Assembly: GCF_024972735.1 (NCBI RefSeq)
Contig: NZ_CP087723.1
Span: 806,001-870,000 of the forward strand
Direction: 5' to 3'
From: Halalkaliarchaeum sp. AArc-CO
Lineage (GTDB): Archaea > Halobacteriota > Halobacteria > Halobacteriales > Haloferacaceae
DNA: 64,000 nt
Shown: piece after piece, positions 2,599-23,891 of the stretch
How positions within the stretch are numbered: position 1 is the stretch's first letter
How the letters are laid out: each line of letters opens with the position of its first letter
Made by a program: the position numbers and the translations under genes
Notes under the pieces: model-generated
Seen by the model: only the letters and a program-made list of their open reading frames with translations
The model's database searches: none
What the model was told of the DNA's origin: nothing

Positions 2599-3975
2599 AT
2601 GGACCACGCCGTCACGACATTCCTCAGAAACCGCGGGCAGATCCTCCTCGTCCGCCGGCCGTCGGCTGTCGACGTGTATCCGAACCGCTGGTCGGGGATC
2701 GCCGACTACCTCCAGTCGGAACCCGACGATCCGCTCGCCGAGGCCGAGCGGCACCTCCGTGAGACGATCGGTTCCGGCAGAGTAGATCTCGTTCGGTCCG
2801 GCGCGCCGATCACGGTTCCGGATGAGGATCGCACGTGGCTCGTCCATCCGTTCCTGTTCGACGTGGAAACCCGACAGATCCCCTCGGACGGGAGCATCGA
2901 GGGTGCCGAATGGGTTCACTCGACGGCGATCCGCGACCGGGACACCGTTCCGATGCTGTGGGAGACGTACCGTCGGGTCGCGCCGACCGTCGAGACGATC
3001 CGTACTGACGAAGTTCACGGGGCGTCGTGGCTCTCGGTTCGCGCGCTCGAGGTGCTCCGCGACGAAGCCGCAAGCGTCGACGAGTGGGACGGAGTCGTAG
3101 GTCTCGCACGGGAACTCGTGGACGTCCGTCCAGGGATGGTCACGATCGGAAACCGGGTGAATCGGGTAATGGCGGACGTCGTCGACGGGGTGAATCTCGT
3201 CGACGGGGATGATGCTGTCGCCGACGCGCCGTCACCGGCGTTCGTTCACGACCGATCGATCGGGGCGATCGATCGGGCGGTCGAAGCCGACGGAACAGCA
3301 GCCCGGTCCGTCGCAGAGCTCCTCGAATCCGGCAACCGCTTTCGCCGACGCGGCGGACCGATCGTCACGCTTTCCCGTTCCGAGACAGTGGTCGACGCGC
3401 TTCTCGAACTGTGTTCCCGGACGGAGCCGGCGGGTCGATCGGAGTCGGCGGATCGTTCGGAGCCGCCGGCGGATATTCGGGTGCTCGTCGGGGAATCCCG
3501 CCCCGACAGGGAGGGAGTGGGCGTGGCCGAGACGCTATCCGACTCCGGCATCGAGGTCATGCTCGCTGCGGATTCGGCGCTTCCTTGGCTCCTCGAGTGC
3601 GGCGACGCCGGCTGTGTGCTCGTCGGGGCCGACACGGTCGATCCCAGCGGGGGCGTGTACAACAAGGCAGGGACCTACGGGCTCGCACTCGCCGCCGACC
3701 GGGCCGGCGTTCCGGTGGTCGTCGTGGCGTCCTCTTCGAAGATCGCCCCGACCGCGGGGTTCGAGCAGGAACGGTCGGATCCCGCGGCAGTGTACGGCGG
3801 AAGCTCCGGGATCGAGGTGGCGACGCCCCGGTTCGACCGGACGCCCCCGGGGCTGGTGACGGCGATCGTCACCGAACATGGGACGCTCTCGACGGCAGAC
3901 GTCCGGTCGATCGCGGCCGAACACCGGACGAATGCGGCGTGGTCACGGCGTGCAGTCGGGACGGACGACGTTTGA
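2599..3975 (+). CDS. NUDIX domain fused to an eIF-2B/ribose-1,5-bisphosphate-isomerase-like domain
   Basis: 458 aa from the ATG at 2599. Residues 1-135 resemble a NUDIX hydrolase (RGQILLVRRPSAVDVYPNRW, then HPFLFDV), but the Nudix box is degenerate: where GX5EX7REUXEEXGU is expected it reads ADYLQSEPDDPLAEAERHLR, so catalysis is uncertain. Residues about 170-450 match the eIF-2B alpha/beta/delta and MtnA/R15P-isomerase fold, with VLVGESRPDREGVGVAETL, VLVGADTVDPSGGVYNKAGT and VVVASSSKIAP. The GADxxxxxGGxxNKxGT core is typical. Haloarchaea carry this fusion. The C-terminal half suggests sugar-phosphate or nucleotide metabolism, but the reaction is not known from sequence. Confidence 0.85.
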   Translation: MDHAVTTFLRNRGQILLVRRPSAVDVYPNRWSGIADYLQSEPDDPLAEAERHLRETIGSGRVDLVRSGAPITVPDEDRTWLVHPFLFDVETRQIPSDGSIEGAEWVHSTAIRDRDTVPMLWETYRRVAPTVETIRTDEVHGASWLSVRALEVLRDEAASVDEWDGVVGLARELVDVRPGMVTIGNRVNRVMADVVDGVNLVDGDDAVADAPSPAFVHDRSIGAIDRAVEADGTAARSVAELLESGNRFRRRGGPIVTLSRSETVVDALLELCSRTEPAGRSESADRSEPPADIRVLVGESRPDREGVGVAETLSDSGIEVMLAADSALPWLLECGDAGCVLVGADTVDPSGGVYNKAGTYGLALAADRAGVPVVVVASSSKIAPTAGFEQERSDPAAVYGGSSGIEVATPRFDRTPPGLVTAIVTEHGTLSTADVRSIAAEHRTNAAWSRRAVGTDDV

Positions 3976-10150: not shown

Positions 10151-11281
10151 ATGAGAATGAAGCACGGAGACGAGAACAAGGTAGACGGTATCGTCCTCGT
10201 AACAGAGGACGCCGCAGAATACCTGAATCCTCGGCAGGAACTCTCTTACCGGGAACACCGCAGAGAGTTAGCGGAGTGGATGCTCAGCCTCGGAAAAGAC
10301 CCGGGGAAGGCAGAGGGCTACAGCCATACTACTGCGAAGAACAGGATGAACCGGCTCGACCTCTTCTACCGGTACACCTGGGATCAGGAAGGCCGATACG
10401 TCCAGGATCTCTCGACTGATCACGCCGATTCTTGGATGCGTTGGCTCGCACGGAAAGACTACAAGGAGTCGACGAAGTGCCACTACCAGAAGGCCGTCCA
10501 CACCTTGTTCAAATGGCAGAACTGGGAACGCGACCGGAACATCGACTGGGAACCTGTGATCGAGTACAGCGATCCCTCCACCAACTACACCCCGAGAGAC
10601 TACCTGACAAGGGACGACCGTAGAAAACTCCGGGAAGCTGCGATGGAGTACGGATCCGTACCTCACTACAATTCTTTAATGCCGGAGGAGCGGGACCGCT
10701 GGAGGAAGCACCTCGCACAGCGGCTCCAGAAACCCGCTGAAAAGGTAGGGAAGGAGGACTGGATCAAGGCGAACTCCTTCAAGTACACCTCAATGATCTA
10801 CACCGCTTTGGACGCGGGACTACGGCCATGTGAGGTCGAACGCGCCAACCTTCGATGGGTGGACACGGACAACCAGGTACTACGGATTCCCAGGGAGGAC
10901 GCATCGAAGAACCGTGAGAACTGGATCATCGCACTGAAACCCGAGACCGCATCCATACTGGAACGCTGGATCGAGGAACGAAAAACACGTGAGAAGTACG
11001 ACAACCGGGAGGCGTTGTGGCTTACCAAGTACGGCAACAGGTACAACAAGGACTCCTTCAGGACCGTCTTCCGGAACATCGCCCAGGAGGCAGGGCTCGA
11101 CCTCGAGAACCGTGACCTGACTCCTTACAGCATCCGGCACTCCACCGCTACATACATCGCCGAGGAACAAGGGTTAGCGGTCGCTGCCGCACAGTGCCGC
11201 CACAAGTCCAAACGGACTACGGAGAAGTACGAGCATAGTTCAGTTAGTCGTCAATCCGACGCGGTCAACAGCATAGACTGA
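10151..11281 (+). CDS. Tyrosine recombinase (integrase) next to tRNA-Thr
   Basis: 376 aa. The catalytic domain occupies about residues 210-376. ALDAGLRPCEVERANL holds the first catalytic Arg; TPYSIRHSTATYIAEE is the HxxR-type box, with Tyr in place of the first His, as is usual in haloarchaeal integrases; CRHKSKRTTEKYEH carries the late His and the nucleophilic Tyr. The N-terminal half is a SAM-like core-binding domain. A ribosome site GGGAGGTG precedes the ATG; another ATG lies two codons in. Its position beside the attachment site makes it the likely enzyme for island integration. It is diverged from the second integrase at 18107 and lacks that protein's zinc ribbon. Confidence 0.92.
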   Translation: MRMKHGDENKVDGIVLVTEDAAEYLNPRQELSYREHRRELAEWMLSLGKDPGKAEGYSHTTAKNRMNRLDLFYRYTWDQEGRYVQDLSTDHADSWMRWLARKDYKESTKCHYQKAVHTLFKWQNWERDRNIDWEPVIEYSDPSTNYTPRDYLTRDDRRKLREAAMEYGSVPHYNSLMPEERDRWRKHLAQRLQKPAEKVGKEDWIKANSFKYTSMIYTALDAGLRPCEVERANLRWVDTDNQVLRIPREDASKNRENWIIALKPETASILERWIEERKTREKYDNREALWLTKYGNRYNKDSFRTVFRNIAQEAGLDLENRDLTPYSIRHSTATYIAEEQGLAVAAAQCRHKSKRTTEKYEHSSVSRQSDAVNSID

Positions 11282-11447: not shown

Positions 11448-13871
11448 ATGAGTGGTGCCCTGCCTTATGTTGATACTGAGGAATGTGTAGTAGCCGCTCT
11501 GGAGGCTTTTGAATCCTGGCTTGAGAACTATTTAGAACAAGACCAGGTAAGCTGGAAGATCGTTTTCGATCAATATAGCACGATCTTCATCGATGATCCT
11601 TCCTCTGATCTGATCGACATTTCTATCACTGGACGCCTTTCAGAACAGATACCTGAGGAATATGCTAATGATTCAGGAGAAATACGCACGCCTGTTTTTC
11701 CAGCTGGTGCTCAAGGATTCCCAGACAACATCAAGGTTAATGAATCAGTGGGGCATGAAGAGTTATTCTCTGAGATTGTTGTCGAACTTCAGGAACTCGA
11801 AGAAGGTTCTGCTTCTGAGGACATTGTTCTAGAAGATGTTATTGAACGTCATAATGATCATGGGATTGTGGATGCCTTCGGCAGCGTCTGGGGTGAACGT
11901 GATTCTCTATTAGCGGTGAAAGCGGCTGAGCGCTCTCTATCCGAAGAGGACCCTGATATCGTTGTCAGCTTTGATGTTCTCCAGAGAATGGCTCCTCCTT
12001 TCCAATATGCAGATTATCTGAAGTATGAACAGCATGAGGATGGCGAGCTGCTGAGCCAGCATAAAGTCAGTTTCAATAAGATCGTAGAGTCAGAGTCTCT
12101 CTCGTCCGAGGAACTTCCTGAAGCCGAGAAAGTGTATGTTCATCAGGATAAGAGGGTTGCAGCATCAGATCATGATATCTCTTCCCAGGATATCGCTCAA
12201 GCCATTCAGGGAAATGTACTACGTAAGAACAGTTTTTGTACACTTTCTGACCCTACTGATAGAGGTTTAAGAGCCCGTGTTGGATCCATAGAGAAAGTAG
12301 TGCTTGAAGAAGATGAAGAGACTTACCGCGGCTTTGTCCGTATCTCACCTAGCGTTGATGTCTCTCTTGTATACGATTTCTATGCAGCGCTCCGTGTACC
12401 TGAAGCTCCCTATCTGACCCATGATTTGGCTCAGGAAACCGTAGACTGGGATAGAGACCACAATCGGTTTTCGGGTTGGAGTGCGGCAGGCGACGGTTTT
12501 GCCTACCATAGCATTGATCGGAGGAGAGACATTCAACGTCGGTTGCTCGCACATAAGTACTGGGTCATACACGGTGAGAAGTACCGCAGAAAGGCCGATT
12601 TCGAAGACGATGTTGAAGCCCTTATTGAGATGATGGAGTCGGAACTGAACTGCGAGGTCTCTTGGCGCAAGTTTGAGGGAACCCGTATTCAGAAGACGCC
12701 TATCCGCCAGTCAGATGTATTGGAACAGATTAGGAACGATGTCCGTACGCCACCTGACAGAAGCACCTTGCTCGAGGCCATAGATCCATTCACAAACAGC
12801 AGCGAGGATGTCGAAGATATTGATGAACCGCTGTTTCCCAGCGATCTATCCGAATTCGTTGCCGATACAAGCATAATCGATGCCCAGGTAATCACGAGAC
12901 TTGTATCAGAGGGTGATCTATACAGATCAACCGTACTGATCCCGGATGTAGTACTGGAAGAGATTCACCGACAGGTCGAAAAAGGAGCTTCACGAGGCGA
13001 CTCCGGCCTTGAGGAGCTAACCGCATTAAGAGAGCTCACGGAAAAGGATATCATCAACCTTGAAACAGTTACTACAGAAAAATCTGTAGATACTGAGGAC
13101 AACGTCGCAGTCGATCAATCACTAATTCAAGTCGCAAAGAAACACGACGTCCCACTCTGTTCTGCAGACGAGACACTTCTGAAGTTCGCGGAGGCAGCTG
13201 GTGTCACTGCATACCCCTTAGAACAGGAACTTTCCCACTGGAGCCAGACGATCAAAAATTCGCTGAGACAAAGCGGTGAGCTTCCGATTACTGACTTGGT
13301 TAGGAAAGTCTACCAGAAAGTCGATGAGAAGAAGTTTTCAGAAGAATCGGTGCATCAAGCCCTCTTCAGAAGTCCTGGACGGATACCATCTCAAGATATA
13401 GCTATGGAGATGGCTATACGGGAAGAAATCAACCGTCTTGTACGCCGCGGAGAACTGTACCAACAAGGTGGACAGGTAGGTCTCAAACAGGAAGTCACAG
13501 TGGTACCTTCGCTAGGTGCGATTAAAGACAGGACACTTTTTGAGAAGATAGATAACGGTGAACTTTCCGACAGAATCGAAATCCCTCCCCACAAAATCCA
13601 GTTCAAAGTCCTTCTACCAGATACCTTCAAGCACTGGGCTTCACTCCAAGGCAAGCAGGAATACCTTTTAGCACTCGACAAGCTAGAAGATCTGGATAGT
13701 CAGGCCGAAATCCGGATTGAATGGAGGGAAGTCCTACCATCAGAAACAGGGTTAGCATTGCTGGACGAGGAACAGTTCTCCAATCTCTTCCAAGGCCTTC
13801 AAAGGAAGACCGCCGTGGAACTCAACACTGTAATCGGCACGGGTTCCAGCTCTATCCTGATAAATCATTAA
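11448..13871 (+). CDS. Large protein with a central PIN nuclease domain, unknown N-terminal half
   Basis: 807 aa. Residues 1-460 match no family I know and contain no ATPase loop. Residues about 465-585 form a PIN domain of the PINc/VapC-ATPase type: EFVADTSIID (first Asp), LIPDVVLEEIHRQVEKG (Glu), NVAVDQSLIQVAKKHDV (Asp) and LCSADETLLKFAEAAGV (Asp), the complete acidic set for a metal-dependent RNase. The region after it (about 600-700) looks like a winged helix (RIPSQDIAMEMAIREEINRLVRRGELYQQGGQ). AT-rich codon use differs from the core genome. It lies upstream of, and co-directional with, the QatB-like/QueC-like genes, with a gap of about 375 bp. A nuclease effector role is inferred. Confidence 0.8.
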   Translation: MSGALPYVDTEECVVAALEAFESWLENYLEQDQVSWKIVFDQYSTIFIDDPSSDLIDISITGRLSEQIPEEYANDSGEIRTPVFPAGAQGFPDNIKVNESVGHEELFSEIVVELQELEEGSASEDIVLEDVIERHNDHGIVDAFGSVWGERDSLLAVKAAERSLSEEDPDIVVSFDVLQRMAPPFQYADYLKYEQHEDGELLSQHKVSFNKIVESESLSSEELPEAEKVYVHQDKRVAASDHDISSQDIAQAIQGNVLRKNSFCTLSDPTDRGLRARVGSIEKVVLEEDEETYRGFVRISPSVDVSLVYDFYAALRVPEAPYLTHDLAQETVDWDRDHNRFSGWSAAGDGFAYHSIDRRRDIQRRLLAHKYWVIHGEKYRRKADFEDDVEALIEMMESELNCEVSWRKFEGTRIQKTPIRQSDVLEQIRNDVRTPPDRSTLLEAIDPFTNSSEDVEDIDEPLFPSDLSEFVADTSIIDAQVITRLVSEGDLYRSTVLIPDVVLEEIHRQVEKGASRGDSGLEELTALRELTEKDIINLETVTTEKSVDTEDNVAVDQSLIQVAKKHDVPLCSADETLLKFAEAAGVTAYPLEQELSHWSQTIKNSLRQSGELPITDLVRKVYQKVDEKKFSEESVHQALFRSPGRIPSQDIAMEMAIREEINRLVRRGELYQQGGQVGLKQEVTVVPSLGAIKDRTLFEKIDNGELSDRIEIPPHKIQFKVLLPDTFKHWASLQGKQEYLLALDKLEDLDSQAEIRIEWREVLPSETGLALLDEEQFSNLFQGLQRKTAVELNTVIGTGSSSILINH

Positions 13872-14208: not shown

Positions 14209-14220
14209 TGATTATTTATG
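14209..14220 (+). promoter_or_regulatory. Probable TATA box for the QatB-like gene
   Basis: The AT-rich stretch GATTATTTATG lies about 28-37 nt before the ATG at 14247, the spacing expected for an archaeal TATA box giving a leaderless or nearly leaderless transcript. This suggests that the QatB-like/acidic/QueC-like trio is transcribed from its own promoter, separately from the PIN gene. Confidence 0.4.
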
Positions 14221-14246: not shown

Positions 14247-14726
14247 ATGGGAAGCGCCTCCACTGGTTCCTCAGGAGCATCAAGCATAGGATATACAGAT
14301 GCAAAGAAAGGGATGAATCAAGCTTTAGAATCAGATAAAACACAGATGGCGGTTGATATCGCAGTTACTGGCGCTTTAGCCGTACAGCCGAACGGTCCAG
14401 CGAAAGTAACCACTTATGCTTATCTAAAGCACACAAACACCTTTATTCAAACAACAAGCCAGGAAGGTATTGAGGCAGGAATCCAAGCGACCGGTAAAAG
14501 CATGGTAAAAGGAGAAATAGCTAATCAGGTTTCCGGAGGAATCGTTCATACATCACAACAAGCAGTTTCAGCTGCCTCCGAAAACGAAACAGTGGCAAGA
14601 GGTGTTGACGAGGTAAACAACAACTTCGGAACACCTTCGGAAGAGGCCGCAAAGGCGACTCTTGGAAGCGTTATCTCCAATGGTGCGGACGCCATGATGA
14701 CTGGAGGTTCGAAAGACGATGAGTGA
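14247..14726 (+). CDS. QatB-like small protein with Gly/Ser-rich N terminus
   Basis: 159 aa from the ATG at 14247. It starts MGSASTGSSGASSIGYTDAK, a flexible Gly/Ser/Ala segment beginning Met-Gly, then becomes a helical Ala/Thr/Gln-rich protein ending GGSKDDE. The Met-Gly-Ser/Thr start followed by Ser/Gly-rich sequence resembles QatB of the Qat antiphage system, but no longer homology can be claimed by eye. The stop codon lies inside the start of the next gene (overlap 14719-14726), and the QueC-like enzyme is third in the unit. From the context it may be the protein the QueC-like enzyme acts on. In-frame codons upstream to 14178 would hide the Gly N terminus and cross the TATA box. Confidence 0.7.
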   Translation: MGSASTGSSGASSIGYTDAKKGMNQALESDKTQMAVDIAVTGALAVQPNGPAKVTTYAYLKHTNTFIQTTSQEGIEAGIQATGKSMVKGEIANQVSGGIVHTSQQAVSAASENETVARGVDEVNNNFGTPSEEAAKATLGSVISNGADAMMTGGSKDDE

Positions 14727-15144
14727 CGATCCATTCGTAGATGAAGAAGAGGCAGAACAGAATATTGAGGAGTTTATTGAGGAACACGGGACAGAAGGTC
14801 TCTTCGTCGTATACTTTCGTCAGTTCATCTTTAGCTTCATAATGCAGGAGCTGAAGTCCAGTGACGAAGAAGTAGAGGACATCGGAACCCAGCTTCACCT
14901 TGACCCGGACGGAGACCAGCCTCTCAAAAATCAACGCGAACAAATGCTGGAACGGTGCGAACACTGGGCTCGAGACCTCGTCGATCACCTAAAAGAAGAT
15001 GAAGTCGTCTCCGAAGTCATCGAATCAGGCGATCTTTCACGGCTTGAAGACGAAGATGTCGAGGAACGAGTCGAACAGGCTATTGACGAGAAGTTTGGTG
15101 AATGGAAAAATCTTCTTGAGGACTTTCTTGAGGGACTGGAATGA
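14719..15144 (+). CDS. Acidic helical protein of the QueC-like cluster
   Basis: 141 aa, very acidic, and predicted to be almost all helix with coiled-coil character (EEAEQNIEEFIEEHG, DEDVEERVEQAIDEK). It contains one aromatic hydrophobic segment, LFVVYFRQFIFSFIMQEL (about residues 28-45), too polar at its edges to be a clear membrane helix. No family recognised. Its start overlaps the end of the QatB-like gene by 8 nt and its stop overlaps the QueC-like start (ATGA at 15141), so the three are translationally coupled and probably act together. Confidence 0.72.
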   Translation: MSDDPFVDEEEAEQNIEEFIEEHGTEGLFVVYFRQFIFSFIMQELKSSDEEVEDIGTQLHLDPDGDQPLKNQREQMLERCEHWARDLVDHLKEDEVVSEVIESGDLSRLEDEDVEERVEQAIDEKFGEWKNLLEDFLEGLE

Positions 15145-16568
15145 CAACGGAGAAATATTATGTTCTACGTCATCCTGAGTTCCAGAGACGGACGGAATCG
15201 AAACTTCGAAAGAAAGATGAAACGGACTATGATAATATCATAGCAGTTGTTCCATACAAAAAGGACGAATTTCCTTACGAAGTAGACTATAGCAGGAGGA
15301 AACCGCTAGAGGCGGACGAAGTCGTCAAGTACGATCACTCCATCACCCATAATCTGTTTCAGGATAGAGTTCCCGACATCGTATTAGATATTCTGGAAAT
15401 TGCTGTGGCTACATTCGCGGCAGACAAAGCAGTAGATCGCGGTGTTAAGATTAATGATGAGGACTTTGATGAAAGCCGACTCAACACCAGGAATATCAAG
15501 CTCCAGGTTCCAGTACTATCGCCTGAGATAGCGACTGAAGAGATGGAACGGCTCTACTCGGAGATGGTGTCCCACATGACTCGGGATGTTGTAGAGTACG
15601 ACTTCCAGCTCGTCGGCAAAACTGAGTCAATAGATAGATACACGGGCCAATGTGGCGATAACACAGTAAGCCTCCTTTCAGATGGTCTGGATAGTACTGC
15701 CGGTATCTACCATAACAAGTCCCAAGGAACGGAATCAGAGTACGTCACGGTCAATTATGGAAGCGGTGTTAGACCGAAAGTAGAAGAAATCGCAGAAGAA
15801 GCAGAGATTGACCCTCAAATCTTCAAAACTCGTTACGAAGGTAGCGGCGAATCTACTCAGTTCTCCCGAGGACTTCTCCATCTCAGCTTTGCAGCTGCTG
15901 CCGGTTCCGCCTTCGGCGCCAACGAAATACGATGTTTCGAGAATGGAATCATGGCCCGGTTCCTCATACTTTCCGAAGGCTGGATGACCACAAGAACCGT
16001 TTCACCACTCTTCTTAACCTACTTCAACAAGATACTGGATAGCCTTTCAAAGCCAATCACGGTCAAAAACCCGTTTGTCAACCACACCAAAACAGAGATC
16101 ATAAGCAAGATTCCTAGCACCGAAACAGTACAAAAAGCCATCTCTTGTCCACATAAAGCCTGGTTCGGAAACCAGAACTGCGGACTCTGTGTACCCTGCC
16201 TCATACGGAACATCGGCATAATTCAGAGCAGTCATGAAGTCGCATTAGAAGACCTCTCCAAGTATAACCCGTTGCTCTCAGCGAACTTCGAAAATCAGAC
16301 TTTCGACGTAGAAATAAAAGAGAATTTGAACGACAATGCAAACTCTCAAGATGTTTTCTTCAAAGCTGTAGCAGAGATAGCATACTTCTGCCGCCGCATC
16401 CTGAAAGAGAATCCTCGGGACCTCGCAATAGAGTATCCGGAATTGCTAAACAGGCCAATCTATAGACAACATCATCTATTTGCAGAAAACTTCGTGGAAT
16501 CCATGCACACAGCTTCAGAGAAAAACCCTACCCTCTCTTATCTAGTGAGAGAATCGTCAAACAATTAG
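15141..16568 (+). CDS. QueC-like ATP-pyrophosphatase, QatC-type
   Basis: 475 aa, about twice the length of housekeeping QueC. Residues about 175-188 carry the N-type PPase P-loop (VSLLSDGLDSTAGIY, SxGxDS). The zinc site is at about 336-353: Cys in ISCPHKAW, then NCGLCVPCLIRN, the C...CxxCxxC arrangement of QueC, which makes 7-cyano-7-deazaguanine. The N-terminal 170 residues and C-terminal 120 residues are extra and have no named domain. Long QueC-like proteins with such additions occur in antiphage systems (QatC, and Cap9 of type IV CBASS). No other queuosine-pathway genes are nearby, which argues against a tRNA-modification role. It overlaps the upstream gene by ATGA and, tail to tail, the TraB-like gene by 4 nt. 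Confidence 0.85.
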   Translation: MTTEKYYVLRHPEFQRRTESKLRKKDETDYDNIIAVVPYKKDEFPYEVDYSRRKPLEADEVVKYDHSITHNLFQDRVPDIVLDILEIAVATFAADKAVDRGVKINDEDFDESRLNTRNIKLQVPVLSPEIATEEMERLYSEMVSHMTRDVVEYDFQLVGKTESIDRYTGQCGDNTVSLLSDGLDSTAGIYHNKSQGTESEYVTVNYGSGVRPKVEEIAEEAEIDPQIFKTRYEGSGESTQFSRGLLHLSFAAAAGSAFGANEIRCFENGIMARFLILSEGWMTTRTVSPLFLTYFNKILDSLSKPITVKNPFVNHTKTEIISKIPSTETVQKAISCPHKAWFGNQNCGLCVPCLIRNIGIIQSSHEVALEDLSKYNPLLSANFENQTFDVEIKENLNDNANSQDVFFKAVAEIAYFCRRILKENPRDLAIEYPELLNRPIYRQHHLFAENFVESMHTASEKNPTLSYLVRESSNN

Positions 16569-17299
16569 AAAAACAGCGGGAGAAAAACTGAGGAAAGATA
16601 AAGGATTCCTGAGTAGAATACGAATAAAACGGAAAATGCAGTGAAGGCCGGAACAGCTAACTCACGTAGATGATGTAAAGAAAGTCGGCTGTACGAGGTG
16701 CGGCGGACTTCTGGATCAATATCATTTGGTAAATGATCCAAAATACCCTCAACATGGCTATCGCCTACTACAGCCACAACTCGATTACTGTCTTCAGCTG
16801 CTTCAACAATTTTATCTGCCATAATCTGATCTCGGTTATTATCCTCAGATGAACGCTCCATATTGTATATCCGTATAAGCAAAATCGGTAACAGTACACC
16901 AATTAGGAGAAGAAATGCACCTCCTACAGTATTTCCTGTGGAGAGACCGAAAAGGATGCTAAACGATACTAAGAGGTAGAACAAAATAGCGCCCATCCAC
17001 TGCATCCATCGAGAAGTGTTGTCCAATAATTCTGAATCCGATTCCCTAGTGTACACTACGTCAGCATCCTGTATCTCCGCCAAATCAATCAGAATATCTT
17101 TGCCGACATACAGATTGTTCATAATCAGCCCAAAAATATCGAGCGATGTCGAGAACCAGCTTTCTTTCCAGCCATAATCAGGTTCAGACTCTGCGCCTTC
17201 TAAGACTAGGGTGTCGATCCCCTCTTTCACTAACTCACATTCTTCTTCCAAGTCCCCCGAACTTGTATGCAACTCTCCCTTCAAAACGACCTCTGTCAT
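16565..17299 (-). CDS. TraB-like membrane protein
   Basis: 244 aa. The soluble parts resemble the TraB family: VVLKGELHTS at the start (in place of the GTAHVS motif), VLEGAESEPDY, and RDQIMADKIVEAAEDSNRVVAVVGDSHVEGI (the family's RDxxMAxxI...VVAVVGxxHxxGI block). Three or four hydrophobic segments are present: two in the middle (about 102-146) and one or two at the C terminus (AFSVLFVFYSGILYLSSVFL). It is shorter than chromosomal archaeal TraB proteins (about 500 aa). It converges with the QueC-like gene and overlaps its stop codon, so it may be unrelated cargo or an accessory of the cluster. Confidence 0.62.
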   Translation of the reverse strand: MTEVVLKGELHTSSGDLEEECELVKEGIDTLVLEGAESEPDYGWKESWFSTSLDIFGLIMNNLYVGKDILIDLAEIQDADVVYTRESDSELLDNTSRWMQWMGAILFYLLVSFSILFGLSTGNTVGGAFLLLIGVLLPILLIRIYNMERSSEDNNRDQIMADKIVEAAEDSNRVVAVVGDSHVEGILDHLPNDIDPEVRRTSYSRLSLHHLRELAVPAFTAFSVLFVFYSGILYLSSVFLPLFF

Positions 17300-18106: not shown

Positions 18107-19333
18107 ATGTCTACCACCGAACACGTCAACGTAGAACGAAGCCTTCAAAATCTCGAGGAGGAGGTCCACCCGGAGAACGCGGAAGCAGTACGCCGCTTTA
18201 TCGATCACCAGGCCGCGGAAGGGATCAGCGAGGTACAGCAGGACCGCCAGGTACAGTCGTTCAAAGCGCTTCTGACTAAGTTCGCTCCCGACGGCTTCCG
18301 GCTGCAAGGTGCGTCCGAAGACGAGCTCAAAACGTTGCTCGCCCGTTTGAACAGGAGTGACTACGCGGAGTCGACCAAGATCAAGTTCAAGGGAGCGGTC
18401 AAGAAGTTCTACAAGGTGGAGAACGGTGGCCACGAACACCCTTCGAAAGTAGGTTTCTTCTCCGTTAACAAGAAGAAGGCCACTCCCGTTACGCGGGACG
18501 ACCTGTTTACCGATGAGGAGCGGAAACGTTTGTTCCGCAGCTTCACCAATACAAGGGATCGGGCGTTCACCATGGTTCTATACGAAAGTGCGGCACGTCC
18601 AGGTGAACTCCTCAACTGCAACATAAACGACTTCTCAACAGGGAAAGGCGACTTCATCTTCCTCGAAGGATCGAAAGGGACGCCCGACAGGAACAACCAG
18701 CTCGTGCGATCGGGAAGGACGTTACGTGAATGGATCTCGCAGCACCCTTTAGGCGGTGAGATCGGCGACATCGAGGATTCATCCGCACCTCTCTGGGTCA
18801 AAAACGAGCAACAAAGTTGCGAACACTGCGGTGAGATCCCGCGTTTCCACGATGATGGTTGTAGTTACGAGCCGGATCTACGTGACAGGATGAACTACAA
18901 CGGCTTCCTCAACCGTTTCAAGGATGCCTGTGAACGCGCAGACATCCCTGAGAACAAACAGCGGCCGTACAATCTGCGTCATACCCGTTTGACCGAGGTC
19001 GCGACCTTCATGGGCTACGAACAGCTCAACAAGTTCGCCGGCTGGGTCCCAGGAAGTAATAGAGCGAAGGTATACGTCCACCTCAACAGCGACGACGTCA
19101 ACAAAGCGATACGGGAAGAGTACGGTCTCGACAACGGTGAGGAAGAGGACGGGTCGATCAACTGCTCCTTCTGCGGAACCGAGAACCAGTCCCAGTATTC
19201 TGAGTGTCGTAACTGTGGACGACCACTAAGCCTTGAAGAAAAATCGAGCAAAGAGGAGAAGCGGAAGATCCTGGAACGGTTGGCAGAGCTTGAGGAACAA
19301 GGAGTATTAGAAAATATTTTTACTGATAAATAG
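18107..19333 (+). CDS. Second tyrosine recombinase, with C-terminal zinc ribbon
   Basis: 408 aa from the ATG at 18107, preceded by CGAGGAGAACG. The catalytic domain holds LYESAARPGELLNC (Arg), KQRPYNLRHTRLTEVATF (Tyr replacing the first His of HxxR), KFAGWVPGSNRAKVYVH (late Trp and the Tyr nucleophile). There is a cysteine cluster CEHCGEIPRFHDDGC inside the catalytic domain, and a zinc ribbon near the C terminus (CSFCGTENQSQYSECRNCG), followed by a coiled coil. Haloarchaeal mobile elements commonly carry integrases of this kind. Coding composition is GC-richer than that of the adjoining defence genes, so it may have a separate history. Confidence 0.92.
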   Translation: MSTTEHVNVERSLQNLEEEVHPENAEAVRRFIDHQAAEGISEVQQDRQVQSFKALLTKFAPDGFRLQGASEDELKTLLARLNRSDYAESTKIKFKGAVKKFYKVENGGHEHPSKVGFFSVNKKKATPVTRDDLFTDEERKRLFRSFTNTRDRAFTMVLYESAARPGELLNCNINDFSTGKGDFIFLEGSKGTPDRNNQLVRSGRTLREWISQHPLGGEIGDIEDSSAPLWVKNEQQSCEHCGEIPRFHDDGCSYEPDLRDRMNYNGFLNRFKDACERADIPENKQRPYNLRHTRLTEVATFMGYEQLNKFAGWVPGSNRAKVYVHLNSDDVNKAIREEYGLDNGEEEDGSINCSFCGTENQSQYSECRNCGRPLSLEEKSSKEEKRKILERLAELEEQGVLENIFTDK

Positions 19334-19394: not shown

Positions 19395-22300
19395 ATGACT
19401 GAAAATGAGAGGACAGCTACTGAATCAGAAAACATGGATGCTTCCGCTAGTACCAGACGGATGGCTGGAGCTGCCAGAGGTTATACCTTCCAAGATGTTA
19501 TAGCGGGCGCATGCATTCTGTCAGTCTTTTTTGAGGAGTCTCAGGCTATTACTATTGAATCGAAGCTCAACGAAGGAGACAAATTTGATGACATTATTCT
19601 GGAACAGGATGGTGACATAATCTGTATACAGGTGAAAAATGGTCCAGATCATACACTTTCATCCAGTGACCTTACCGGCTCAAGCGGCAGAGGGCTAGAT
19701 CTTAGCAATCTATCCGAATCTGCAGAAGCTCGAGTCCAAGCAGGAGAAGGCACACGTTTCATAGCGCTAACCTCGTTTGGAAGTGAGACTGGCCCAGATA
19801 TCGAATTTTTAGATGACTCTGAAAACATAACTCTGTTCGGCGAATTAAGCTTTGAAACGGACATATTAGCGGATGGTAGGAACGAGGTTGACGGAGAAAT
19901 CGTTGATATTGAATTCGTTCTTGGAGTACCGGGAATAGGAACAGCTACTGATGAAAAGGTAGAATCGCTTCGCAATACGGAACTTTTCGAAAGAATAGTT
20001 GAAAGTGTTACCTCACGTCTAAATATCCGAGAGAATCCAGAAATCGATGATCCATATTCGCTAACGGAGAGGGCAGTTAACTTAGCGAGATGGGCGCGGA
20101 ACCAGCCGGTCGATGTTCAAAGATTGGACCGAGAGGAGATAATCCACCGGTTAAAGTTGTTTCCATCTAAACAGTTCGCACAACAATTTGAACTTCCAGA
20201 GAAATACATCCGACCCAGATGGACCGAGGAACTAGAGGAAGCATTTGATGATTCAGACAACCGAGTCTTAGTAGAAGGCAGCCCCGGAAGCGGGAAATCC
20301 GTAGGTATTGAACTCTTTCATCGGAGTTGGGAAGATTCGGATGATTATCGAACTCTTCGATTCTACCTCTATGTGCCGGAAGATGCTGATTCACTAGAAA
20401 AGAGGCGAGGCGACCCAGAATGGTTCAGGCACCAGCTTGCTGCTCAGATATATGATACATTTCCAGAAGCGTTTGGAGAAGGTACTCCAGCTCCGGTATG
20501 GACGGGAACTGAAGACCTACAACAGTATATTGATAAGGTTGCCCAATGGGCAGAACAAGAGGAACAACAAATTCTATTTATCATTGATGGTCTTGATCAT
20601 GCACTACGACAGTTTGGAGGTACTTCCGCCACAGAATCCGCTGAAGGCACCGTCCTTGAGGAACTGGGATCGCTTGACTTCCCTAATCCGCTAGGTCTCT
20701 TGATGATCAGTCGTGAGATAACGGAGGCTCACGATATTTTACGAGTTGATAATCAAATTGAGGTTCCACGATGGAGTGTGGAGGAGATCAAAGAATATCT
20801 TGAGAGAAAGAACATACCTCCCGAGGACGAGTTCGTCAGAAGAGTTGCAGAAATTTCTGGCGGACTCCCTGTCATCATCTCGCATCTCATACGAAAGGCT
20901 GAAACTCAGGGAGAAGAAGTAATTGAGGGTCTTCAATCAGCAATCGAGGATGCATCGCACGTTGATGGTGAACTTGAACAGTATTACGATACGATTTGGG
21001 AGCCTTTAGAACCGTATGAGCGAGACGTGGTCTCTTTATTCGCATTGAACCCTACAGGGTTACGAGAAGAGACAATTAAATCAGTAGTCGATTTTCCCTA
21101 CATACAGGAAAGCACGAGGCTTGAAGGTGCACCACTCGCCCATATTTTAGAGTCTACGGCAGATGGACGATTCCGAGTATTCCATGATAGCTTCAGAAAG
21201 TTCGTAGAAGACCAGCTGGATCAAGAAGAAATTACACAAGGCCACGAACGCCTCTACGAGTATCTGTTTGACCAGTGTATCAAGTTTCCACAAAACTTGG
21301 AGAGTCTAAAGTACCACGCAGAAAATGGACCTGGACGTAGTGCTCTCAAGGAGTTGGCAACTCTTGAGAATCTCCTGTGTTGGTGGCAAGAAGGGATTCA
21401 TCTCGACCATCTCTCTAAAACGTTAGACTTGGCCTTTGATGTTTCACTTCGAGATGAAGACTATTTCACGGCTGTGGACTGTATCCTTCTTGGAGGTGTT
21501 GCCCGAAATATGCTCGATATTTACATGGAAGATAACTCTCGTCTCAGATATTTTGCCGCCCAGTCAGACCTAGGTAGGGCTCTACGCTTAGTAGATCAAA
21601 TTCGGGGTTACGAAGGCGGCAGCAAGGAAGCCATCGAAGCGATGCAAATCGTGGCTCGGAACTGGGAAGATGAATTGGAGCGAGATTGGCTTGCTGCTTG
21701 GGAAGAAGACTATCAAAGAGCTGAGCAGCCGAGCTGGGATCCGGAAGCGTACTTTGAGGTCGCATCTGAAATATTGGAGCCGCAGGAGTTTTGGAAAGCC
21801 GCGGGAGAAATTAGGCGAGAGGACAACGGACAACACTTTCCGCGAGAAGTCCTTGCTGCTGTCCAGAATAAACCCGAACTATTGGAGGGCCAACCCGAGC
21901 CGCCGGAGTGGTTATTTGAGAATGAATCAGTGGCATTGGAAGCGTGTGAAGACCTAATCCATGATCTTCCGGAGCCATGGCGTGAAGAACTTAAAGAGAA
22001 TGCCCCGGATTACTCAGACTTATCTTTAGCAGCACTACATACTTTACTCAGATGTGGTGGAGCAGAAGACGAAATCCGAGAGGTTATTGAAAACACCGAA
22101 CTTGGCGAGCCGATAGATGATTGGGGTCAAGGAGGTTCCCGGTTCTATGAAGTCTACTATACCGGTTCAATAGTTGCAAGTCTTGACGAGTCTCCCGAGG
22201 AGCTTCTTGAAACCATAGACCGGATAGCTATCGAGCAACCGCGGTTTCAGAAGCTTCTTGCCATGATGGGGGCGGCCACGACTAGAGACTCTTCGACTCA

Positions 22301-23891
22301 GAGCCAGCGGTGGGTCGATGCTACCCTTGAGTTCCTTTGTAGAATCTTTGAAGAAGGCCATTTAGTTGATTCAGATGTTCGATATGTAGACCAGTTTCGA
22401 TATCAGCAAGCAGTTTCTGATATTGCAGGCGCCTTTAGAAAGGTAGTTAAACAGGGTTCAGAGGACCAATTAAGTGAAGCAATCCAACTGAATAAAGAAG
22501 CGGACTTTGAAGATCGAACCTTGGAAACGGTTTCCCGATATCTTACTGAAGCATGGGAGGAAGTCAACACGGAAGCTCTCCCGGATGGTATAGATGAGCG
22601 TTATGAGAACATATTGAAAAGACCCCCTAGTGAAGAGCCGCCGTCGAGAGAGCTCATGGATTTAGCTGTACGAGCGGCCAAAGAGGGATATGATTCTCGC
22701 GCTGAAAATTACGTAGAAGTCGCGGTTGAGCGCTGTTTCCGATATGGTTATCGGAAGGATATTTTCCTTAACGATGTTTGGAAAGGACTTGAAGATGTCG
22801 CAGACGGGCAATGGGATCGACATCTCGGCACTGCTATCCAGCTGATTAATTGGGCGAATCTTCTTCATGACCTTACAGACGGGAAAGAGACTCGTCACTT
22901 TGAGGGAGTATTCTTAAAATCTCTTCTTGATGCTGATGCCGTTGACTATCATACGGCAGAAAAATATGCTGAACATAACACAACTCAAAGGAAACTCTGG
23001 AACTGGCGCTTGGAGAATCCAGATGGAATGACTGCAGAGGAACTGAGAAGTCTCATTTATGTGAAAGAAACGCGGATTCGAAGTCGACGTCATTCAAATA
23101 GAGAGCTCCCCTTCTTTTCAAAAGCTGCTGAAGTGGCTGATAATTTCGGTTGGGATGAACTGGTTGTTAAAGCACTACATGCGTTAAATAGGGGAGACTA
23201 TGTCCGAGACGGTATCAACTCCGATCGAGAACAGAGACTTCGGGACTTGGCATCACAATATGATATAGAGATACCCAGCGACCTGGATTCAGATAATGGT
23301 TCCAGTGAATTCGAAGGAGAATCTGTAGAAACAGAATCAGAAGATGACCGCATACATGAAATTCTTTCTCAACATTCAGAAGAGGATCCGGTTTCGGTGG
23401 AGAGTGTGGAAGAACTTACGTCAGAGGAACTTTTGAATGCTGGCGAATTGCTCCAAAAGGATATGGTAGGATCACCAAGGTACAATCCGGCTGCAGCAGC
23501 TCCAATTTCGCGTGTTTTAGCGGATAGGGGTAATGTGGATGACGCGATTGAGTTGTTGGAGAATGTGATTGCAGAGCGTGATCTTATAAATTCGTGGTTG
23601 GGAGGCGGACGTGGCCGCTTTGAGATGGTCGCTGAAGCTTTGCTCGACATAAATGAAGAAAGAGCTCTCCAGAGTGTGCTTAATGGTTGGAGAATGAGCC
23701 GCCTTGACACTCAAAGCTATCTTTCGATACTTCCTCAACTATTGTGGATAGTAAAACAGACTGAGGGAGAAATAGCCGCTGAAGAACTATTTTCGCACAT
23801 GATGAAGTGGATGAGAAGACTTGTATGGCCATACGAAAATCACGTCCAGAAGTGGGGTGTTCTCGAATCAGATGAACATTCGACGAGATAG
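19395..23891 (+). CDS. Avs-like STAND NTPase with N-terminal Cap4/Mrr-like nuclease
   Basis: 1498 aa from the ATG at 19395, with GAGGA upstream. Residues about 28-180 form a PD-(D/E)xK nuclease-like domain: GYTFQDVIAGA, E55, DD at 65-66, then CIQVKNG (Q79, K81), the E-D-QxK layout of DUF4297/Cap4 effectors. A P-loop follows at about 295-302 (EGSPGSGKSVG), Walker B at about 393-400 (ILFIIDGLDH), then LLMISREI and EISGGLPVIISHLI, typical of STAND ATPases. The remaining 900 residues are helical repeats, the usual sensor part. Such proteins (Avs/AVAST) recognise a viral protein, oligomerise and degrade DNA. Which Avs type it is, and its ligand, cannot be told. It is the last gene before the right attachment copy. 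Confidence 0.88.
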   Translation: MTENERTATESENMDASASTRRMAGAARGYTFQDVIAGACILSVFFEESQAITIESKLNEGDKFDDIILEQDGDIICIQVKNGPDHTLSSSDLTGSSGRGLDLSNLSESAEARVQAGEGTRFIALTSFGSETGPDIEFLDDSENITLFGELSFETDILADGRNEVDGEIVDIEFVLGVPGIGTATDEKVESLRNTELFERIVESVTSRLNIRENPEIDDPYSLTERAVNLARWARNQPVDVQRLDREEIIHRLKLFPSKQFAQQFELPEKYIRPRWTEELEEAFDDSDNRVLVEGSPGSGKSVGIELFHRSWEDSDDYRTLRFYLYVPEDADSLEKRRGDPEWFRHQLAAQIYDTFPEAFGEGTPAPVWTGTEDLQQYIDKVAQWAEQEEQQILFIIDGLDHALRQFGGTSATESAEGTVLEELGSLDFPNPLGLLMISREITEAHDILRVDNQIEVPRWSVEEIKEYLERKNIPPEDEFVRRVAEISGGLPVIISHLIRKAETQGEEVIEGLQSAIEDASHVDGELEQYYDTIWEPLEPYERDVVSLFALNPTGLREETIKSVVDFPYIQESTRLEGAPLAHILESTADGRFRVFHDSFRKFVEDQLDQEEITQGHERLYEYLFDQCIKFPQNLESLKYHAENGPGRSALKELATLENLLCWWQEGIHLDHLSKTLDLAFDVSLRDEDYFTAVDCILLGGVARNMLDIYMEDNSRLRYFAAQSDLGRALRLVDQIRGYEGGSKEAIEAMQIVARNWEDELERDWLAAWEEDYQRAEQPSWDPEAYFEVASEILEPQEFWKAAGEIRREDNGQHFPREVLAAVQNKPELLEGQPEPPEWLFENESVALEACEDLIHDLPEPWREELKENAPDYSDLSLAALHTLLRCGGAEDEIREVIENTELGEPIDDWGQGGSRFYEVYYTGSIVASLDESPEELLETIDRIAIEQPRFQKLLAMMGAATTRDSSTQSQRWVDATLEFLCRIFEEGHLVDSDVRYVDQFRYQQAVSDIAGAFRKVVKQGSEDQLSEAIQLNKEADFEDRTLETVSRYLTEAWEEVNTEALPDGIDERYENILKRPPSEEPPSRELMDLAVRAAKEGYDSRAENYVEVAVERCFRYGYRKDIFLNDVWKGLEDVADGQWDRHLGTAIQLINWANLLHDLTDGKETRHFEGVFLKSLLDADAVDYHTAEKYAEHNTTQRKLWNWRLENPDGMTAEELRSLIYVKETRIRSRRHSNRELPFFSKAAEVADNFGWDELVVKALHALNRGDYVRDGINSDREQRLRDLASQYDIEIPSDLDSDNGSSEFEGESVETESEDDRIHEILSQHSEEDPVSVESVEELTSEELLNAGELLQKDMVGSPRYNPAAAAPISRVLADRGNVDDAIELLENVIAERDLINSWLGGGRGRFEMVAEALLDINEERALQSVLNGWRMSRLDTQSYLSILPQLLWIVKQTEGEIAAEELFSHMMKWMRRLVWPYENHVQKWGVLESDEHSTR

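Follow-up and report, generated by a model that had tools for sequence, protein, structure and literature searches.

In our preferred reading, to which we give a probability of about 0.6, region 14247-16568 of the window (the whole 64,000-nucleotide stretch of Halalkaliarchaeum sp. AArc-CO that was analysed) represents the QatB-QatC defence core in an archaeal form of three genes, in which QatC would join a small carboxylate to Gly2 of the product of gene A. The reading draws on a Met-Gly start that is forced in the haloarchaeal homologues and an invariant Gly2 within the 20 N-terminal residues, the most conserved of that protein; on an A-B-C gene order that is conserved with overlapping frames and recurs in two more distant archaea; on a QatC that retains its catalytic set (T-R-T and the zinc cysteines), together with a match between gene B and the C terminus of QatB; and on Gly-first partners in other architectures, taken with the literature on QatB G2D and on Cap9. 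We count against it that gene A has neither detectable similarity to QatB nor the Pro-Trp motif, that the ATP motif reads SDGLDS, and that the model of gene B matches nothing in the PDB. The MGTS form of QatB is known from bacteria; a predicted three-gene archaeal variant with a conserved Gly2 is what is added here.

The locus bears on the main question of the Qat system, namely what, if anything, QatC attaches to QatB. It is a small version of that system, and its host genomes come with and without the pathway to 7-carboxy-7-deazaguanine (CDG), so that the deazaguanine model can be compared simply. The cassette may also be relevant to QueC-family clusters restricted to archaea, to which a recent survey gave no assignment (PMC13329287).

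Table 1. Positions of the cassette genes and their elements in the window.
Feature	Positions	Strand	Description
Gene A	14247..14726	+	159-aa partner of QatB type with an N-terminal Gly; may be the front part of a split QatB; each A-B-C cassette has a homologue
N-terminal tail MGSASTGSSGASSIGYTDAK of gene A	14247..14306	+	Gly2 is the proposed acceptor; M1, G2, A4, S9, S12, Y16, A19 and K20 invariant
TATA-like promoter element ATTATTTAT	14211..14219	+	28-36 nt 5' of the ATG at 14247
Gene B	14719..15144	+	141 aa, acidic and helical; overlaps gene A by 8 nt; separate overlapping ORF in 12/13 loci
Gene C	15141..16568	+	QatC-type QueC-like enzyme, 475 aa; 4-nt overlap with gene B
ATP pyrophosphate-binding motif SDGLDS	15678..15695	+	From the QatC alignment; SGGxDS in most QatC
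T284-R285-T286	15990..15998	+	Invariant in the QatC alignment; equivalent to T278/T280 of P. aeruginosa QatC
Zinc-binding cysteines C336, C347, C350, C353	16146..16199	+	C347, C350 and C353 invariant, C336 nearly so, in the QatC alignment

Gene C encodes a QatC-type enzyme

The product of gene C is assigned to the QatC type of QueC-like enzymes. It matches the QatC model of PADLOC at 2.4e-30, the NCBIfam QatC model NF041925 at 9.6e-33 (113.6 bits, well under the 280-bit cut-off of that model) and the solved QatC chains 9vlk (PDB, 1.2e-12) and 9zee. In a tree of QatC sequences the haloarchaeal proteins all fall together with 100/100 support, and the two distant archaeal proteins lie on long branches, which makes their placement unsure. 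The ATP motif departs from SGGxDS in the window and reads SDGLDS or SDGIDS throughout its clade, with SGGLDS in the other haloarchaeal clade. At the Thr-x-Thr site, T278 and T280 of the P. aeruginosa enzyme take the place of the Tyr and Asp with which QueC and Cap9 bind CDG, and defence depends on them (PMC13279940). With canonical QueC, the preQ0 synthase, the protein shares the QueC fold, the PP-loop and the zinc site; it is unlike QueC in being about twice as long, in having different active-site motifs and in not lying beside queD or queE. The initial annotation had placed this gene next to gene A, but gene B intervenes and the QueC-like gene is the third of the cassette.

Gene A starts at a conserved Met-Gly that is forced in its homologues

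Gene A opens with the ATG at 14247, and its protein, starting MGSAS, carries exactly the N terminus that the initial annotation had read from the open reading frame. Two further details of that annotation are also borne out: in-frame start codons do continue upstream to 14178 (TTG and GTG codons are present there, and the frame is open for 46 codons upstream), and the TATA box that it put about 28-37 nt before the gene is the element in Table 1. The short start that it favoured is the only one possible in frame in each of the 12 other haloarchaeal loci, where a stop codon lies 0-10 codons before the ATG-GGN with no in-frame ATG, GTG, TTG or CTG in between. The genes of this survey were found by the pattern ATGGG; a separate homology search aligned its matches from query residue 1. 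A TATA-like, AT-rich element precedes the ATG by about 21-38 nt in all 13 loci. Such a distance is what one expects of archaeal transcripts with no leader or almost none, and the predicted promoter element of gene A is placed as fits a transcript of this kind. Because the relatives have a forced Met-Gly start behind a TATA-like element, the in-frame extension upstream of 14247 in the window is most likely an accident. A longer N terminus, which had been named beforehand as the finding to set against the short start, was looked for in these relatives, and their starts are forced at Met-Gly.

Aligning the N termini of homologues for a conserved Met-Gly, as had been proposed, shows Gly2 to be invariant in all nine sequences, which are 31-85% identical to the window protein. 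The mean identity between the two haloarchaeal clades is 0.62 over columns 1-20, compared with 0.23-0.33 elsewhere in the protein, and dN/dS of gene A is 0.05-0.12 (taken only where dS is unsaturated). From these values and the invariant residues we conclude that the N terminus is the most constrained part of the protein; with the forced starts and the TATA-like elements, they show the Met-Gly start to go beyond chance. In an AlphaFold2 model of low confidence (pLDDT 39.9, too poor for a fold search) the first predicted helix begins at residue 16, so that an unstructured tail is not a firm feature.

The protein had also been called QatB-like, and here the profile searches do not follow: Pfam, PADLOC and NCBIfam assign it to no named family and do not recognise it as QatB, and the NCBIfam QatB model NF041924 is not matched. 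When gene A was aligned with QatB by hhalign, 32 of 150 shuffles scored as high, which amounts to no detectable similarity, and gene A lacks the Pro-Trp motif that many bacterial QatB keep in their tail. Its profile found no relatives in the viral contigs, and the profiles of genes A and B found no plausible relative among PDB sequences.

Genes A and B as a possible split QatB

The three genes recur together in the same compact arrangement. In 12 of the 13 loci gene A runs 8-11 or 32 nt into gene B, which in turn overlaps QatC. The same order is found in two distant archaea of the same phylum (G632 and G681), with an A of about 150 aa, a B of 94-95 aa and then a QatC-like enzyme; gene A starts there with MGSQNRSRLS (after a second ATG) and MGGRKSYSAN, respectively. 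The cassettes are carried on plasmids in several haloarchaea, and a Natrinema plasmid has the three genes without other Qat genes. Searches by tblastn with two QatA and two QatD queries found neither qatA nor qatD in the window or in 16 archaeal loci; as a control, the bacterial QatA queries found each other at 33% and the QatD queries at 41%. In a minus-strand Natrinema plasmid copy (L029), gene B, which lies directly downstream of gene A, contains an in-frame TAG, and this copy of the cassette may be decaying.

Gene B offers a suggestive resemblance, at the level of profiles, to the C-terminal third of QatB. Its hhalign match covers the final ~88 columns of the bacterial QatB profile, at a score of 26.7 and a probability of only 12.9%; the best of 150 column shuffles reached 19.0 (0/150 as high) and the reversed profile 18.9. 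The AlphaFold2 model of gene B is helical (pLDDT 76.8), and Foldseek against the PDB returned nothing below E 7 for it, QatB included. Together A and B add up to about 243-302 aa, which matches the 240-300 aa of QatB. The simplest reading is that A and B together are a split QatB, the A half being suggested by gene position, size and the Met-Gly terminus. We rejected the possibility that A and B are one gene broken by a frameshift, because they lie in separate frames with conserved overlaps in 12/13 loci and dN/dS is low in both.

Compared with the bacterial qatABCD system, the archaeal loci are alike in having a QatC-type enzyme that keeps the invariant Thr-x-Thr as well as the zinc cysteines, a Met-Gly partner upstream in the same operon, and overlapping genes. 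They differ in having no qatA or qatD, in the apparent division of the QatB role over two genes, in starting the partner with MG[ST]A where bacteria have MGTS, in the missing Pro-Trp motif, and in the score of the window QatC, far under the NCBIfam cut-off (113.6 vs 280 bits).

An N-terminal glycine recurs beside QatC

Is a glycine at position 2 a general property of the partners of QatC? Among bacterial QatB proteins sampled from plasmids, 14/15 start with MGTS and 1/15 with MGGS. In viral contigs with QatC, 44/45 loci yielded an upstream ORF with a Met-Gly start, mostly MGH or MGTS, with MGH in 30; the rule applied was GG after the start codon, some loci hold other in-frame starts upstream, and the listed start of one (L102) is probably wrong. 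As a control, the same loci hold 394 ORFs of 200 aa or longer, and 48 of these have Gly2 at their first start, a count that includes the partners themselves.

The MGH proteins precede QatC-like proteins of mostly ~600-800 aa, and the QatC sequences of the ten MGH loci put in the tree make up a single clade (100/99). The MGH proteins are mostly ~260 aa and follow the pattern MGH..LG.LP.(T/S)..W..V, as in L090:3184-6049, L117:3088-5743, L094, L111, L121, L122 and others. Scans of two of them, from L117 and L090, gave no hit in Pfam, PADLOC or PHROG, and the MGH family in viral contigs is apparently unreported.

By their sequences, then, predicted Gly-first partners adjoin QatC in three groups: the known MGTS QatB, the archaeal MG[ST]A proteins and the MGH proteins. 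This recurrence supports Gly2 as the target. In bacterial Qat, G2 and the MGTS motif of QatB are essential, defence is lost with G2D, and QatBC can be protective by itself (PMC13279940). The earlier proposal that an exposed Gly2 goes with the QueC-like gene is upheld insofar as a QatC-type enzyme is encoded in the same cassette and Gly-first partners lie beside QatC elsewhere; comparison and the published bacterial genetics give good support for Gly2 being the functional acceptor. That the glycine recurs in dissimilar partner families argues that the function of the class centres on Gly2, and this recurrence supplies a sequence rule for finding further members. More tentatively, and at somewhat under even odds, QatC-type enzymes may be a broad class of N-terminal glycine ligases that attach something other than deazaguanine to MGTS, archaeal MG[ST]A plus B, and MGH partners, families with no detected similarity to each other (MGH being set apart by family-model scans of two members); that the group would be other than deazaguanine would follow from such enzymes working in hosts without the CDG pathway.

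Proposed mechanism and alternative readings

In the reading that we prefer, gene A would be made from the Met-Gly start, and removal of the methionine would leave an N-terminal glycine. By analogy with type IV CBASS and bacterial Qat, A would be docked on QatC with the help of gene B, in the manner of the C-terminal part of QatB, and QatC would activate a small carboxylate with ATP and join it to the alpha-amine of Gly2; this ligation would in turn arm or regulate the A-B-C complex for defence. The attached group would probably not be CDG from the known pathway of the host. Bacterial QatC has so far not been reconstituted in vitro (PMC13279940).

The nearest precedent is Cap9 of type IV CBASS, which deazaguanylates an N-terminal Gly (PMC11996544), and the window has in common with it a QueC-like enzyme and a partner with an N-terminal Gly. 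The differences are that the partner A is not an oligonucleotide cyclase (CD-NTase), matching no model of one in Pfam or PADLOC, and that Cap9 keeps the CDG-binding Tyr and Asp where the window QatC has Thr-Arg-Thr. No TGT-like (Cap10) match was found among the genes beside gene C in the window.

On the Cap9 precedent (PMC11996544) and the QueC ancestry of gene C, QatC could attach CDG to Gly2 of A in the way that Cap9 modifies its CD-NTase, and the initial annotation had proposed a deazaguanine there; we find this proposal unsupported and consider it unlikely. Six haloarchaeal carriers of the cassette do have orthologues of both QueE and QueC (G375, G112, G155, G051, G085 and G143), and archaeosine TGT is present in 18 of the 18 genomes searched, which implies that deazaguanines enter these cells. 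But the residues that hold CDG are replaced by Thr/Thr in QatC (PMC13279940), and QueE and QueC queries, taken from the queD-queE-queC operon of G004, gave no ortholog match in the window host, with none or weak matches at most in six other carriers (G093, G207, G126, G074, G145 and G318). A search of the host for canonical QueC likewise returned only argininosuccinate synthase, a LarE-like protein and NAD synthase, all identified by reading their sequences, and QatC itself. A QueD-family gene is present in the host, which nevertheless seems unable to make CDG by the known pathway; a CDG-dependent reaction would be hard to sustain there, barring import of CDG or its production by other enzymes. 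Finding no QueE or QueC in the host, together with the Thr pair, argues for a different activated acid, and Gao and colleagues have raised a distinct modification on structural grounds. Since TGT is present in all 18 genomes, hosts without QueC probably import preQ0. The patchy distribution of QueE and QueC in haloarchaea, set against TGT in all 18 genomes, suggests that preQ0 salvage is widespread.

Slightly less favoured than a CDG conjugate is a tail of A that stays unmodified and occupies the active site of QatC, where only Gly would fit, acting there as a sensor or a pseudosubstrate plug. Published structures and models do place the N terminus of QatB within the active site of QatC with no modification of QatB seen, and the Gly2 conservation found here would look identical; a mere plug, though, would need no intact ATP site, and the catalytic residues of QatC are essential in bacterial Qat (PMC13279940) and conserved here. 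We think it very improbable that A-B-C is a defence cassette functionally unrelated to QatB, whose Met-Gly would stem from ordinary start preferences or N-terminal acetylation: such an origin would agree with the failure of gene A to match any QatB model, but it sits poorly with a Gly2 in QatC partners that are unlike in sequence, with a first-start Gly2 in just 48/394 ORFs, partners included, and with the resemblance of gene B to QatB.

Genes around the cassette

Upstream of the cassette in the window, 11448-13871 encodes an 807-aa protein with a weak PIN-domain match, unseen beside the cassette in other loci; downstream, 16565-17299 (minus strand) encodes a membrane protein that gives weak TraB/ChaN-type matches and has a close relative next to the cassette in Haloferax gibbonsii (L002:4241-4978). 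We considered both genes as parts of the system and ruled them out, as the neighbours differ in most other loci. Tyrosine-recombinase genes at 10151-11281 and 18107-19333 flank the cassette region, which suggests a mobile island, and a 1498-aa NACHT-domain protein with weak similarity to Avs1b (19395-23891) is likely a STAND-type defence gene.

Elsewhere, an oligonucleotide cyclase (L009:2920-3816, PADLOC 3.4e-81) lies directly downstream of QatC in the second haloarchaeal clade, as also in L011 and L012; the cyclase beside the second-clade cassette starts MISRAK, without Gly2. In L010, a ThsB-like TIR gene (3048-3974, Pfam 4.7e-28) and a PDC-M50A candidate adjoin the A-B-QatC cassette.
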